40,582 bases of DNA from an uncultured Pelagibacteraceae bacterium (lineage in GTDB: Bacteria; Pseudomonadota; Alphaproteobacteria; Pelagibacterales; Pelagibacteraceae). The translations under genes were made by a program, and so were the position numbers. Where the stretch lies: assembly GCA_902619835.1 (NCBI GenBank), contig CACNFS010000009.1, positions 1 through 40,582 on the forward strand, given 5' to 3'. This document shows positions 10,235 to 14,657 of this stretch, piece after piece (position 1 is the stretch's first letter; each line of letters begins with the position of its first letter). A model generated the notes under the pieces. It made no database searches, was not told the origin of the DNA, and was given only the letters and a program-made list of their open reading frames with translations.

Positions 10235-10970
10235 ATATTTTATTAATAATTTTCCAATAATCAATATTTATAAAAAACCTAATTTAAAATCTGAGTTAGT
10301 TACACAGATGATTTATGGAAATAGTTTTTCAATAAATAAAAAAACTAAAAAATGGTTAAGAATAAAAATCAAAGAAGATAATTATAAAGGTTTTATACAA
10401 AAAAAAATTTTTTCAAAGTATGTAAGCCCTACACATAAAATACATGTTTTAAAAGCTAAAATTTTCAAGTATCCAGGTAAAAAAAAAGTTTCTGAGCTTC
10501 CATTTGGCTCAAAAGTTAGAGTATTAGAAATAACTTCTAAATATTATAAAATTTCAGAAGGTTGGATTAATAAAACTGATTTAAAACTAATTTCTTTCAA
10601 AAACAAAGATCCATTCAAAAAAATTTTTATATTTAAAGGAGTAAAATATAAATGGGGAGGAAAGTCTTTCAGAGGCATAGACTGCTCGGGTTTGATACAA
10701 GTATTTTTAAATTTTAATAATAAATATTGTCCAAGAGATGCAAAAGACCAAATAAATTTCTTTAAAAGAAATATTAAACTTTCTAACATAAAAAAAAACG
10801 ACATAATTTTTTGGAAAGGACATGTTGCATTAGCTATTTCAAAAACTCATCTTATTCATGCATATGGTCCTATGAAAAAAACAGTAGTAATGAAAATTGA
10901 TAAAACAATAAAAAAAATTGAGGAAACAGCAAACTTGAAAGTTTTATCAATTAAAAGACTTAAAAAGTAA
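10227..10970 (+). CDS. SH3-domain NlpC/P60 cysteine peptidase
   Basis: The product is 247 residues with no signal peptide, so probably cytosolic. Residues 1-125 form two SH3-like beta modules; 130-247 is the NlpC/P60 catalytic domain. The nucleophile is C153 in GIDCSG and the histidines are H199 in GHVALA and H211 in LIHAYG, giving a complete Cys-His-His set. Family members of this layout (dipeptidyl-peptidase VI type) cleave gamma-D-Glu to diamino-acid bonds in wall peptides. Overlap by 8 bp with the AmpG-like permease suggests that imported muropeptides are trimmed by this enzyme. A G/C-rich hairpin starts directly after the stop codon. Confidence 0.82.
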   Translation: MVKYFINNFPIINIYKKPNLKSELVTQMIYGNSFSINKKTKKWLRIKIKEDNYKGFIQKKIFSKYVSPTHKIHVLKAKIFKYPGKKKVSELPFGSKVRVLEITSKYYKISEGWINKTDLKLISFKNKDPFKKIFIFKGVKYKWGGKSFRGIDCSGLIQVFLNFNNKYCPRDAKDQINFFKRNIKLSNIKKNDIIFWKGHVALAISKTHLIHAYGPMKKTVVMKIDKTIKKIEETANLKVLSIKRLKK

Positions 10971-10998
10971 GGGCAGTTTCAGTCTCCCTCCACTGCCC
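10971..10998. terminator. G/C-rich hairpin after the NlpC/P60 gene
   Basis: GGGCAGT (10971-10977) pairs with ACTGCCC (10992-10998) around a 14-nt loop. It begins at the base after the stop codon, as expected of a terminator, but the + strand has no T-run after it. On the minus strand the hairpin is followed by TTACTTTTT and would lie about 75 nt after the 16-codon ORF at 11076-11126. It may end transcripts from one or both sides. The minus-strand loop reads GGAGGGAG. Confidence 0.45.
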
Positions 10999-11075
10999 TC
11001 AGATTTAATTTAACTGATTCGCTTGGATAATTTATTTTTTTTTAAGTGTGGATAAATTCTATATATCAATCCGCA

Positions 11076-11126
11076 TTAATTCATAAAGTAGCCAAGAGCA
11101 ATTATAATCACAAAAACTTCTAACAT
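11076..11126 (-). CDS. Candidate 16-residue hydrophobic peptide
   Basis: A very short frame encodes MLEVFVIIIALGYFMN and stops with TAA. It is notable because a perfect AGGAGG (minus strand, complement of 11133-11138) sits 6 nt before the ATG, the ideal spacing; I noticed no other ribosome site this strong among the starts I examined here. The peptide is almost entirely hydrophobic, so it could be a membrane micropeptide or a leader. I do not recognise it. It lies in the gap between the NlpC/P60 gene and the secreted-protein gene, with the hairpin at 10971-10998 as its likely terminator. No clear promoter can be assigned upstream. The frame is too short to judge by coding statistics. Confidence 0.45.
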   Translation of the reverse strand: MLEVFVIIIALGYFMN

Positions 11127-11201
11127 AAGAAACCTCCTGAGAATTAGATTAAATCAATTTTTAAGAAAAATTAAGTCTCTTAATAGTTGTATGTTTATAA
11201 G

Positions 11202-11219
11202 TGGCGGAGATAGAGGGAT
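11202..11219 (-). repeat. Duplicated tRNA-Ser 3' end (att-like direct repeat)
   Basis: The + strand reads tggcggagatagagggat and matches the last 18 nt of the tRNA-Ser gene at 11738-11755 at 17 of 18 positions, in the same orientation. The match includes the encoded CCA and stops abruptly. It lies downstream of the tRNA 3' end, the geometry left when an element integrates into a tRNA gene. The 518 bp between the copies hold one gene for a small secreted protein and no integrase. Confidence 0.7.
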
Positions 11220-11226
11220 CACAATT

Positions 11227-11670
11227 TTAAAATGATTTTTTTGCAGCAGAACATTTAGCTCTCCCATCATATGATGTATCCATGCCTTGCTCTAAGCGAA
11301 AGTGTGCATTTCTTTTTTTAAATCCTTTTAATTTCTCTTCACCTTTAAGATATTTAAGTAATTGTTTACCGTTAATTTGTTTAGATACCTCCACTTTTCC
11401 AGTGCCAGAGTATCTATCAATATGATAAAACATTATAGTCCATTTATCATTAGTAGAGTCCATTGGAATATTTTCATGAAATTCAACTATGCTATCATCA
11501 TGATAAGTTAAATAACCGCCCTTTTTTGAAGAGTCCAATTCAAAAGTTTTAGTTGCTAGAAATTTTCCATTGAGTTCAATATCGCACTGTAATTTTATTT
11601 TAAGCATTTTTGCATTTACAAAAGAACTGTAAAGAAAACTTAGAATTATTATAATAAAATATTTTTTCAT
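11227..11670 (-). CDS. Hypothetical secreted protein, 147 residues
   Basis: The N-terminus is a classic Sec signal peptide: MKK, a hydrophobic core (YFIIIILSFLYSSF), then VNA with cleavage after A20. The mature part is about 127 residues, polar and beta-rich by eye, with two cysteines near its ends (C29 and C140) that could form a periplasmic disulfide. I recognise no family. The gene is alone on the minus strand between the tRNA-Ser gene and the duplicated tRNA 3' end, so it may be the cargo of a decayed integrated element. Its stop lies 8 bp from the repeat. The 67 bp upstream hold a repeated gacgac pair (gacgactatacgacgac) of unknown meaning. Confidence 0.7.
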   Translation of the reverse strand: MKKYFIIIILSFLYSSFVNAKMLKIKLQCDIELNGKFLATKTFELDSSKKGGYLTYHDDSIVEFHENIPMDSTNDKWTIMFYHIDRYSGTGKVEVSKQINGKQLLKYLKGEEKLKGFKKRNAHFRLEQGMDTSYDGRAKCSAAKKSF

Positions 11671-11737
11671 ATATGACGACTATACGACGACCAAGGTTTT
11701 TTTAAAACTAACTATGAGTTGTAATAATTTCTAAAAA

Positions 11738-11827
11738 TGGCGGAGAGAGAGGGATTCGAACCCTCGAAACGGTTTCCCGTTTACACGCTTTCCAAGCGTG
11801 CGCCTTCAACCACTCGGCCATCTCTCC
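11738..11827 (-). tRNA. tRNA-Ser (anticodon GGA)
   Basis: The minus strand folds as a serine tRNA with a long variable arm. The acceptor is GGAGAGA pairing with TCTCTCC, the discriminator base is G and CCA is encoded. The anticodon loop holds GGA within ACGCTTGGAAAGCGT, reading UCC/UCU codons. The variable arm pairs around AACGGGAAACCGTT. The T arm is GAGGGTTCGAATCCCTC. It starts 2 bp after the stop of the glycosyltransferase gene, so it may be cut from the pheS-pheT-lepA transcript. Its last 18 nt are duplicated at 11202-11219. Confidence 0.95.
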
Positions 11828-11829
11828 TT

Positions 11830-12849
11830 TTAAAGTTCATTTATAATTTTTACAAACTCATCTATAAATTCTTTATTTGTAGGAAGTTTATTTTTCAACA
11901 AATCTTTTTGAATTTTCTTATAATTTTTTCTTATAAAATTTAGTGTTCCAAAAAAACTAAGAAAATTTCTTTTTGATACAAAAACTCCTTTTTTTTCTCC
12001 AATAACATGCTTAATTTCCTCAAATATGATTACTGGTCTTCTTCTCGCTAAAGCCTCCAAGAGAACCATTGGATGACCCTCTGTAAATGATGGTAAAACA
12101 AAAATATTATGATCATCATAAAATTTGATAAGTCTGGCTTTATTGCTTTGTGTAAGGTGTATTTTAATATTACTTTGATTTATTTTATTAGAAGTTTGTT
12201 TTTCAGCTCCAATAACTGTTAATGTAATATCACGTTTATTTCTTATTAAGTTTGATAAAGAAAAAATTCCTTTTTCAACTCTTATTCTTCCAACATATAA
12301 TAGTTTAAAATTCTTAATCTCTAAACTTTTAGGTTTTCTAAACCAAACTGAGTCCAATTGAGATGGAGAAACAATTTTTCCTTTTTTACCTTTAAGAATA
12401 TAATTTCTACAACTTATAAAATCGCCAATGAATGATGCAATATTGAACATTAAGTGATAAATTAAAGGTCCAATTTTTCCAAGTATCGCTTTATACTCGC
12501 CATAACCATCACTTCTTAAATATATAATCGGTTTTTTTCTGAAAATTCTTAAAATTAACGAAATTATTAAAGTATAAGGCGTAATTGAGATTACTAAATA
12601 TTTTGTCTCTTTCTCCTTGGCAGTAGATATTACAGATGAAATATAAGAAATAATATTAGAAAAAATTTTAACTCTTTTTAATTTAATTTCATGGGCTCTT
12701 TTTTTTAAAGATTTTCTACCAAATAAATATACTTCAAATTTTTTATTTAATCCTTCGGGAGTGGATTTGAGGTCGATATTATCACAAAAAAACTTATTTT
12801 CATTTAAATGAATACTTTCATTTGAAAAAATAAATAATTTTTTTTTCAT
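11830..12849 (-). CDS. Glycosyltransferase, family 4-like
   Basis: The product is 339 residues with the C-terminal half of a GT-B enzyme. [14 protein letters not shown] (about 182-195) is the nucleotide-sugar-domain opener and [12 protein letters not shown] has the E-x7-E pair at 257 and 265 typical of retaining GT4 enzymes. The acceptor and sugar cannot be read from sequence; cell-surface polysaccharide or lipid is likely. Its ATG overlaps the lepA stop as TAATG, so a surface-sugar gene is translationally coupled to a translation factor. It ends 2 bp before tRNA-Ser. Confidence 0.78.
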
Positions 12850-14657
12850 TAAGTTTCTTTGTTAATTTTTAAAACTCCTATAAAAGCTTCTTGTGGTATT
12901 TCAACCTTTCCGAATTGCTTCGATCTTGCTTTACCTTTTTTTTGTTTCTCTAAAAGTTTCCTCTTTCTATCAACAGCACCACCTCCGTGTATTTTAGTTA
13001 AAACATCTTTTTTGAAACCTTTAATTGATTCTCTGGCAACAATTTTTCCTCCTATTGCAGCTTGAACTGGTATCATAAAATTATGTCTTGGTATTAAATC
13101 TTTTAATTTTTCACAAACTTGTCTTCCTGTTTTTTGAGCAAAGTCTTTGTGAATTATCATCGCTAAAGCGTCGACTGGCTCAGAGTTTACTAGTATACCC
13201 AACTTAACAAGATCTCCCTCTCTGTAGTCAGAAATATCATAATCAAAACTTGCATAGCCGCTTGAAACTGACTTAAGCCTATCGTTAAAATCAAATACTA
13301 CTTCGTTTAAAGGCAGATCATAGGAGAGCACTGCTCTATTACCAGAGTATGACAAATTAGTTTGTATTCCCCTTTTATCTTGGCAAATTTTAATGATTGA
13401 GCCTAAAAATTCATCTGGAGTAATTATTGTAGATTTTATCCAAGGCTCCTCAATTTTTAAAATTTGAGAAGGATCTGGCATATTTGAGGGATTTTGTAGA
13501 TCTAATATTTCTCCTTTTGTCTTATGTACTTTATAAATTACACCAGGAGTCGTCGTAATTAAATTTACATCAAATTCTCTTTCCAATCTTTCAGTAATTA
13601 TTTCAAGATGCAATAATCCTAAAAAACCACATCTAAAGCCTAGACCTAAAGCGCTAGACGACTCATGTTCATAAGAAAAACTAGCGTCATTTAATTTTAA
13701 TTTAGCCAAACCATCTTTTAATTTTTGATATTCTGAACTGTCTACTGGAAACAAGCCGCAAAATACAACTGGTTTACTTGGTTTAAAGCCAGGTAGAGGA
13801 TCTTGGATTGGGTCAGCAGAATCACATATAGTGTCTCCCACTTTTGTCTCTGATAATGATTTTATTCCAGTAATTATAAAACCAATTTCACCAGAGTTTA
13901 ATTCATCAATATTAGTAGGTTTAGGTGTAAATACGCCAACTTTCTCAATAACATATTCCAAATTATTTGACATAAATTTGATTTTCATACTTTTTTTTAA
14001 CTTACCGTCAATTACTCTTACTAAAATTACTACACCTAAATAGCTATCGTACCAGCTATCAACTAATAAACATTTTAGTTTTTTACTTTGCTCACCTTCT
14101 GGGGAAGGAAGTTTTTTAATAATAGCTTCTAATATTTCATCTATTCCTTCTCCTGTTTTACCTGAACAAGAAATGGCATCTCTTGTGTCGATACCAACTA
14201 CATCTTCAATTTCTCTTTTTGACTTTTCAATATCTGATGCGGGTAAATCAATCTTATTCAAAATTGGAATAACTTCGTGGTTAATTTCTAAGGCTTGGTA
14301 TACATTAGCCAAAGTTTGTGCTTCTACTCCCTGAGTACTATCTACTATAAGCAAAGATCCTTCACAGGCTGATAAAGAACGGCTTACTTCATATCCGAAG
14401 TCCACATGACCTGGAGTGTCAATAATATTAAATATATAATCTTTTCCGTCTTTTGCTTTATAGTTTAACTTGACTGTTTGTGCTTTTATTGTAATTCCTC
14501 TTTCTCTTTCTATGTCCATTGAGTCTAGCACTTGTTGCTTCATTTCTCTTTCGGTTAAACCTCCGCACTTATGAATGATTCTGTCGGCTATAGTGGACTT
14601 TCCATGATCTATATGCGCAATTATTGAAAAATTACGAATTCTTTGAATATCTGACAT
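12849..14657 (-). CDS. lepA: Elongation factor 4 (LepA)
   Basis: The product is 602 residues, the normal LepA length. The GTPase P-loop is AHIDHGKST at 14-22, followed by the switch/G3 region DTPGHVDF and the NKIDLP G4 motif. The C-terminal LepA-specific domain includes [20 protein letters not shown] near the end, which distinguishes it from EF-G. LepA is a ribosome-binding GTPase that acts on stalled or assembling ribosomes. Both junctions are TAATG overlaps: with pheT upstream and the glycosyltransferase downstream. The order pheS-pheT-lepA is not a textbook operon and may be lineage specific. Confidence 0.96.

Follow-up and report, generated by a model that had tools for sequence, protein, structure and literature searches.

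A probable decayed integrative element of a minimal SAR11 family that targets the 3′ end of tRNA-Ser(GGA)

The stretch of DNA considered here, called the window below, comprises 40,582 nucleotides from an uncultured Pelagibacteraceae bacterium of the SAR11 group and is contig C9 of a 925-kb, 30-contig genome. It carries a tRNA-Ser(GGA) gene that appears to be the insertion target of a family of small integrative elements, one of which the window very probably retains in decayed form. The gene lies on the minus strand at 11738 to 11827, with its 3′ end, including CCA, at 11738 (ARAGORN; Rfam RF00005, 62 bits). Its last 18 nt (11738 to 11755, minus strand; TGGCGGAGAGAGAGGGAT on the plus strand) recur with one mismatch at 11202 to 11219 on the minus strand, 536 bp away, and pattern matching over all 40,582 bases found these two places as the sole matches at three or fewer mismatches (mean expectation of 0.00 in 100 shuffles). 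The repeat had been reported in the original prediction and is confirmed. We take the displaced copy to be the putative remnant of a left attachment site, for which relatives have copies of up to 74 nt.

A single gene lies between the tRNA and the displaced copy, again as originally described, and the interval also holds a conserved element end, discussed below. The gene (11227 to 11670, minus strand, the strand of the tRNA) encodes a 147-aa protein with no assigned fold, and its start codon stands 67 nt behind the tRNA, directly after a pair of short repeats. The protein begins like a signal peptide and is probably secreted, which agrees with the earlier claim as far as judgment by eye allows. 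It matches no Pfam family and has no significant PHROG match (best E value, 0.055), and a single-sequence structure prediction was poor (pLDDT of 44.5). The gene is absent from the 100 other genus genomes searched, and in 397 family genomes the window itself gave the only match better than an E value of 1e-3. There were five weak matches in those 397 genomes (E values of 0.0016 to 0.0087), and the four that were inspected had the appearance of shared signal peptides or chance similarity. No relative was found in the collections viral_contigs and genome_contigs. Among the other proteins carried at this site, the best match (E value of 1.9e-4) is to a protein at locus L134 and runs mainly across the signal peptide.

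Beside the tRNA gene, at 11674 to 11736 on the plus strand, is the conserved right end of the element family, as evidenced by a match of 23.0 bits (E value of 2.9e-6) to R1, a model of such ends that was trained on 15 of 17 examples, with the window excluded and near-identical copies omitted. The only other R1 match in the window at E values up to 10 has an E value of 1.3. One part of this right end (11674 to 11694, plus strand; TGACGACTATACGACGACCAA) consists of two direct GACGAC(C/T) repeats, 11 bp apart, which are putative arm-type sites for a recombinase. A left-end model, R2, built from 14 of 18 left ends with near-identical copies again omitted, recovered no left end in the window, where its 31 matches up to an E value of 10 include a best one of 0.011 elsewhere and one of 0.088 at 11642 to 11695 that overlaps the right arm. 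Neither did R2 recover a left end in the rest of the window's genome. Because the right end is present and the left end lost, the element in the window would be a decayed one.

Comparison with relatives relied on a conserved flank on the far side of the site, the NlpC/P60 gene (10227 to 10970, plus strand; Pfam PF00877), through which the site was found in 123 of 151 genus genomes, including the window's. The locus was fetched from 100 of the 122 relatives; the remaining 22 were weak or fragmentary matches or stood low in the list. Many of the genomes are incomplete (about 51 to 98% complete among those listed), and tRNA-Ser is missing from the contig in 6 of the 101 loci, window included, which leaves 94 relatives with the tRNA on the contig. 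Wherever a stretch includes the flanks, one gene order holds throughout: a major facilitator superfamily (MFS) gene, NlpC, a hairpin, a variable interval, tRNA-Ser, a glycosyltransferase, and LepA. In the window, the last two, assigned by Pfam and synteny, lie on the minus strand at 11830 to 12849, on the 5′ side of the tRNA, and at 12849 to 14657. A good share of these loci have additional or different genes on the 5′ side of the tRNA.

Counting the window, the tRNA is on the contig in 95 loci, 38 of them empty and 57 filled. An empty interval measures at most 160 bp and typically about 105 bp, and the 56 filled relatives (of 94) carry genes other than the window's. Sites lacking both the gene and the second tRNA copy, to which the original prediction had pointed as a check, therefore exist in 38 of 95 loci, and the gene is not common to all relatives. 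The sequence that precedes the tRNA 3′ end in empty relatives precedes the displaced copy in the window (11171 to 11199, plus strand; 24 of 29 positions identical). This ancestral flank sits two bases left of the 18-nt copy and has the top local-alignment score in the window (19; a stretch that overlaps it scores 14, and the next-best unrelated place scores 12).

Of the 56 filled relatives, 19 have displaced pieces of the tRNA 3′ end, called at a local-alignment score of at least 14, inside the interval. In 16 relatives, a total of 17 copies span the same 74 nt and all end at one D-arm base; one of them, in L071, carries a 2-nt deletion. An eighteenth copy, in L093, differs at the penultimate base of the 74-nt stretch, and the copies in L062 and L036 are degraded. 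Because the displaced piece is usually 74 nt in the family, the 18-nt copy of the window would be a truncation or a shorter core. In nine relatives, the copy starts 105 to 144 nt past the end of the NlpC match, and in empty sites the tRNA itself starts about 105 to 120 nt past that point, so that the copies begin there or at most 40 nt beyond. In 11 of the 19 relatives, the copy abuts the ancestral flank or lies no more than about 40 nt from it, while in the others it lies deeper. L070 and L134 have DNA inserted before the hairpin, yet their copies again follow the ancestral flank. L039 holds two tRNA copies and two cassettes in tandem. The exact left junction of the family was found in 16 stretches of a collection of 84,980 species, and all 16 are titled Pelagibacteraceae or Pelagibacterales.

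At locus L131 (genome G025), the target tRNA-Ser is decayed behind the right end of the element and a different tRNA-Ser(GGA) lies further on (about 13490 and 17160 in NlpC orientation), as if the function of the tRNA had been replaced. An extra degraded tRNA copy at this locus, seen by eye, is not counted above.

The ends are shared by elements whose contents differ. A right-end motif, TGACGACCATACGACGACCAA, stands beside the intact tRNA in 17 relatives, several of which have unrelated cargo, and a similar motif lies behind the 74-nt copy in 14 aligned left ends from 13 relatives; L240 has three GACGACC repeats spaced 11 bp. At E values of at most 1e-3, R1 matched in 33 and R2 in 27 of 169 genus genomes, with some of the weak R1 matches being left arms. 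Genomes G151, G166, and G168, which lie outside the training of both models, proved to hold fresh elements with both ends. Weak R1 matches in G090, G066, G034, and G017 were rejected as unrelated DNA away from tRNA-Ser, three of them being one coding-like gene between tRNA-Met and tRNA-Val, and weak R2 matches in G127, G104, and G084 were set aside as stretches without tRNA-Ser. Among the 100 fetched relatives, 14 have an element with both ends, as do G151, G166, G168, and G216; such elements are small (about 0.5 to 2.1 kb) and carry one to three genes. The two arms of an element resemble each other more than the arms of different elements do, with 1.07 versus 2.03 mean mismatches over 9 nt (permutation P of 5e-5; n = 15), and they covary (Mantel r of 0.59; P of 1e-4; n = 15). 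The ORF nearest the tRNA is on the strand of the tRNA in 18 of 19 right-end loci, window included; the distance from the tRNA to its start is 39 to 96 nt at 14 of the 18 and 169 nt at the other four, which carry a 579-aa gene. Read-through of the cargo from the tRNA promoter is possible.

Evidence for mobility comes from other members of the family, the window's own element having no close relative. Between L056 and L090, 2,081 nt of element are 99.2% identical, whereas the adjacent core DNA is 81.2% identical; between L058 and L130, the corresponding values are 98.9% over 1,972 nt and 77.4%. A third case crosses genera. Genome G216, from genus g9, was found with R2 and is taken as contig QCSF01000004.1 (AG-470-E16), which has the same matches at a constant offset. 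Its element is identical to that of G081 at 1,339 of 1,356 nt (98.7%), while lepA is 72% identical. LepA lies on the same contig (6007 to 7812), and the far flank is not NlpC but a gene that reads as beta-lactamase-like. Six g9 relatives have this far-flank neighbor, and in three of them the tRNA is on the stretch; all three show a native tRNA body, CGGG..CCCGCGAAAGAG, within positions 13 to 42 from the 3′ end. Two of the three sites are empty, the neighbor gene and the tRNA being 11 nt apart. In G216, the tRNA copy that borders the host flank has donor-type sequence, and the intact tRNA gene, right behind the foreign right end, is native at positions 13 to 42, which indicates that exchange took place within the last 12 nt of the tRNA gene (TGGCGGAGAGAG). 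These 12 nt span CCA to the junction of the acceptor and T stems, and we infer that the crossover zone of the window is the same, namely, 11738 to 11749. As judged from such sequence comparisons, the element family is mobile between species and between genera.

The genes carried at the site are diverse. ORFs in intervals longer than 200 bp form 60 clusters, of which one is the window's own gene. The largest, with 22 members, is a 578-aa class of protein that has no Pfam match and reads as outer-membrane-like from its sequence. Other cargo includes trypsin-like proteases (PF13365), small secreted proteins (by eye), methyltransferases, epimerases, and one protein that is restriction-enzyme-like (PADLOC mREase_II). 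These tallies, for 59 clusters, cover the first 25 of the 61 Pfam families listed and 25 of the 31 PHROG families; no structural or integrase family is among those 25 PHROG families, and those first 25 Pfam families were the range in which conjugation genes were looked for. A cluster of small hydrophobic proteins of about 70 to 85 aa, c1, recurs at the left of the interval, behind NlpC (L037, L039, L050, L062, L067, L080, L087, and L096). Our guess is that these proteins resemble small membrane peptides of the bacteriocin or holin type, and cluster c2, on the opposite strand, may be a chance ORF facing a second c1-type gene.

Between NlpC and the site, the window has a conserved hairpin (10970 to 10999, plus strand; GGCAGC-loop TCAGTCTCCCTC-GCTGCC) that lies outside the element. 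By alignment, this hairpin is near NlpC in 79 of 95 loci and, with a conserved tail of about 60 nt (down to about 11055 in the window), lies between NlpC and tRNA-Ser. The region has no Rfam match in the window; hairpin and tail may constitute an unrecognized small RNA or a two-way terminator of SAR11. A second variable spot is found at the locus in L109, L126, L135, L070, and L134, where about 1.1 kb is inserted between NlpC and the hairpin, and the gene of cluster c6 in this insert reads as methyltransferase-like. The window has two versions of the ancestral flank, a degraded one behind the hairpin (10963 to 11066) and the better-kept one beside the 18-nt copy, and between them is a 16-codon micro-ORF, MLEVFVIIIALGYFMN (11076 to 11126, minus strand), that has a strong Shine-Dalgarno site. 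Comparable hydrophobic ORFs of very small size (MSGWEILAVVAVIYYLANNM and MSGFEIFLVVFVIYAITS) adjoin tRNA-Ser in L059, L079, L098, L117, and L123, and together these micro-ORFs are possibly a family of membrane micropeptides.

Searches for a recombinase and for a parent element gave no candidate at the site. Matches to the integrase family PF00589 number 115, in 107 of the 151 genus genomes, and none is on the site's contig in the 123 site genomes, 84 of which have one elsewhere; serine recombinases were not searched for separately. The PF00589 proteins are mostly about 309 to 327 aa, and most read as Xer-like in size. Because no PF00589 match shares the site's contig, we infer a recombinase acting in trans. 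Ten stretches with other or weak integrase matches include a tRNA in seven cases (Leu in four, and Glu, Met, and Val) and none in three; tRNA-Ser is in none of the ten, and the family ends gave weak matches there (E values of 0.074 for R1 and of 0.004, 0.02, and 0.09 for R2). No parent element with these ends was noticed in the 397 family genomes, R2 matches below 25 bits in other genera aside. Searches with the 74-nt core, a 34-nt part of it, the arm motif, and the left junction revealed no related phage or viral contig. The 74-nt core did match 14 records, which were discarded because the matches are tRNA-Ser-like and lie in phages that infect other bacteria (Salmonella, Acinetobacter, Listeria, and Staphylococcus among them), and the arm motif matched three stretches, of which the one that was read, L167, is unrelated, coding-looking, GC-rich DNA. 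The original prediction had named larger islands with an integrase in related genomes as one observation that would support it and had noted that temperate phages of SAR11 integrate at tRNA genes. Larger islands do occur at the site, but no integrase was seen with them, and the searches described here linked no phage to tRNA-Ser(GGA); because the elements of intact relatives are integrase-less, a prophage origin is not indicated.

We consider it very probable that the interval in the window is a decayed member of a SAR11 family of minimal integrative elements that insert at the 3′ end of tRNA-Ser(GGA). The idea that a decayed or minimal element delivered the gene is supported by the empty and filled sites, the shared ends, and the right end in the window. 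As judged by comparison among relatives, the insertion site, its empty state, shared ends with different cargo, the 74-nt piece, stacking, and transfer between species and genera are features of this family. In each element, two conserved ends would enclose one to a few cargo genes, and insertion would be site specific, at the 3′ end of the tRNA. A tyrosine recombinase supplied from outside the element, by a phage, another element, or the host (Xer), would bind the repeated GACGACC sites at both ends and join the circular element to the end of the tRNA, leaving the tRNA gene whole. The window would afterwards have lost the left arm and most of the displaced copy, so that 18 nt, the cargo gene, and the right arm are left. 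More tentatively, these elements might constitute an integron-like tRNA cassette system: a recombinase in trans would insert, stack, and exchange, between species and genera, integrase-less cassettes of one to three genes with paired arms, and transcription reading through from the tRNA promoter would express the newest one. The newest cassette runs in the direction of the tRNA, and in several cases, including that of the window, its start codon follows the arm site at a short distance.

Several observations weigh against the proposal of a site-specific element. At 37 of the 57 filled sites (counting the window), the search recovered no tRNA copy, and other routes of gene exchange may consequently act here too. 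The 18-nt copy adjoins the second version of the flank, with the micro-ORF between both versions, which a simple one-step model leaves unexplained. The window keeps half of the signature, lacking a left end, and the alignment of its right end to the model is gapped and scores 23 bits. The crossover position comes from one case, G216, in which two tRNA positions, 70 and 84 counted from the 3′ end, agree with the donor genus and not with the three native genes, and this too is unexplained. The arm comparison ignores the shared descent of some elements, and no recombinase, circle, or helper was identified.

The sites without a tRNA copy would suit a replacement-type island spread by RecA-dependent homologous recombination through the tRNA and its flanks, with tRNA copies arising as by-products of tandem duplication. 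The conserved NlpC and lepA flanks could supply homology, and the larger intervals hold glycosyltransferases and epimerases typical of replacement islands. Nevertheless, in g9, where the NlpC-side flank is different, the same element still occupies precisely the 3′ end of the tRNA, and the native tRNA body is preserved right beside the foreign right end; the identical stretch that contains the junction is 12 nt long, even though one of at least 27 nt could have been used further inward; and different cargo share ends whose two arms covary. We regard this account as quite unlikely. A remnant of a larger phage or conjugative element that lost its own integrase by deletion is unlikely too. It would fit the partial deletion of the window's element, the integrases near other tRNA genes in a few of these genomes, and the reported integration of pelagiphages at tRNA-Leu (PMC6811365). 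Against it stand the small size of the both-ended elements, the lack of PF00589 on the site's contig where checked, the absence of a related viral contig in the searches described above, and the ten integrase stretches, which have no convincing family ends.

Two further explanations concern the repeat itself. A hairpin and flank are conserved at this place in most relatives, as would be expected if the second tRNA piece were a vertically inherited regulatory or processing element, but the hairpin is distinct from the tRNA copy and the empty loci have neither copy nor gene, making this explanation very improbable. The repeat is also short and imperfect, as a chance similarity might be; given the null expectation in shuffled sequence, and a copy that adjoins the ancestral flank and pairs with a family right end, chance is hardly credible.

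Elements of other bacteria resemble the proposed SAR11 family in part. Cassette insertion at tRNA genes with tRNA repeats is known from additive flexible islands, such as fGI1 of “Candidatus Actinomarinales” (PMC7771536), fGI-2 of “Candidatus Methylopumilus” (PMC10872708), and those of Alteromonas (PMC4119200). These islands, like the SAR11 site, vary in size and content and grow by repeated insertion, and the SAR11 site likewise has empty and filled states beside a tRNA, a direct tRNA repeat at the far end, and, in other members of the family, incongruent divergence. The SAR11 elements apparently differ in having ends conserved beyond the tRNA repeat, a point on which the island descriptions consulted are silent, and they have a size of about 0.5 to 2.1 kb and no integrase seen with them. 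In the tRNA gene (tDNA) islands of Islander (PMC4383910), a regenerated tRNA gene and a displaced fragment mark the end points, as here, and the SAR11 crossover in the acceptor/T-stem junction fits Islander subsite J; however, Islander requires an integrase inside the island, and none was found in the SAR11 elements. Cis-mobilizable elements (CIMEs) (PMC5704250) keep attL and attR without integration genes and form tandem arrays by accretion; in SAR11, both ends are present in the elements of 18 relatives, with no PF00589 match on the contig where checked, whereas the window has lost its left arm. CIMEs are decayed integrative and conjugative elements (ICEs) or integrative and mobilizable elements (IMEs), whereas the small SAR11 form is widespread, moves between genera, and has no known conjugative parent. 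Tycheposons (described via PMC10872708) are cargo-carrying elements at tRNA genes of streamlined marine bacteria as well, but they measure 4 to 200 kbp and have their own tyrosine recombinase, xerD in the Methylophilaceae case; the SAR11 elements are far smaller (536 bp in the window), and no such recombinase was found. With integron cassettes (PMC4119200), the family shares small units with a recombination site, stacking, the lack of a recombinase in the unit, and cargo mostly in one direction. The integron target is attI, while the SAR11 target is a tRNA gene, and the SAR11 ends are tRNA derived with arm-like repeats on both sides. A prophage remnant finds no counterpart here, in that no phage with the core or junction and no phage genes among the PHROG families listed were encountered.

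The portions consulted of two SAR11 papers (PMC7318151 and PMC11898729) do not describe the tRNA-Ser(GGA) site, and the top literature matches, which mostly leave subscription journals uncovered, include no published description of a SAR11 tRNA-Ser cassette site. Cassette islands targeted to tRNA genes are known in other marine bacteria, and the minimal, integrase-less SAR11 family with conserved ends would be a new version of this theme.

The genomes of SAR11 are among the smallest and most streamlined of free-living cells, and its populations nonetheless have large pangenomes. Mobile elements are scarce in SAR11, and how genes are acquired under these conditions is an open question. With the insertion site and the ends defined and the cassettes countable, this question becomes testable: one can ask whether small secreted proteins, proteases, and nuclease-like genes are exchanged via cassettes, count the cassettes of each species, and look for the recombinase.
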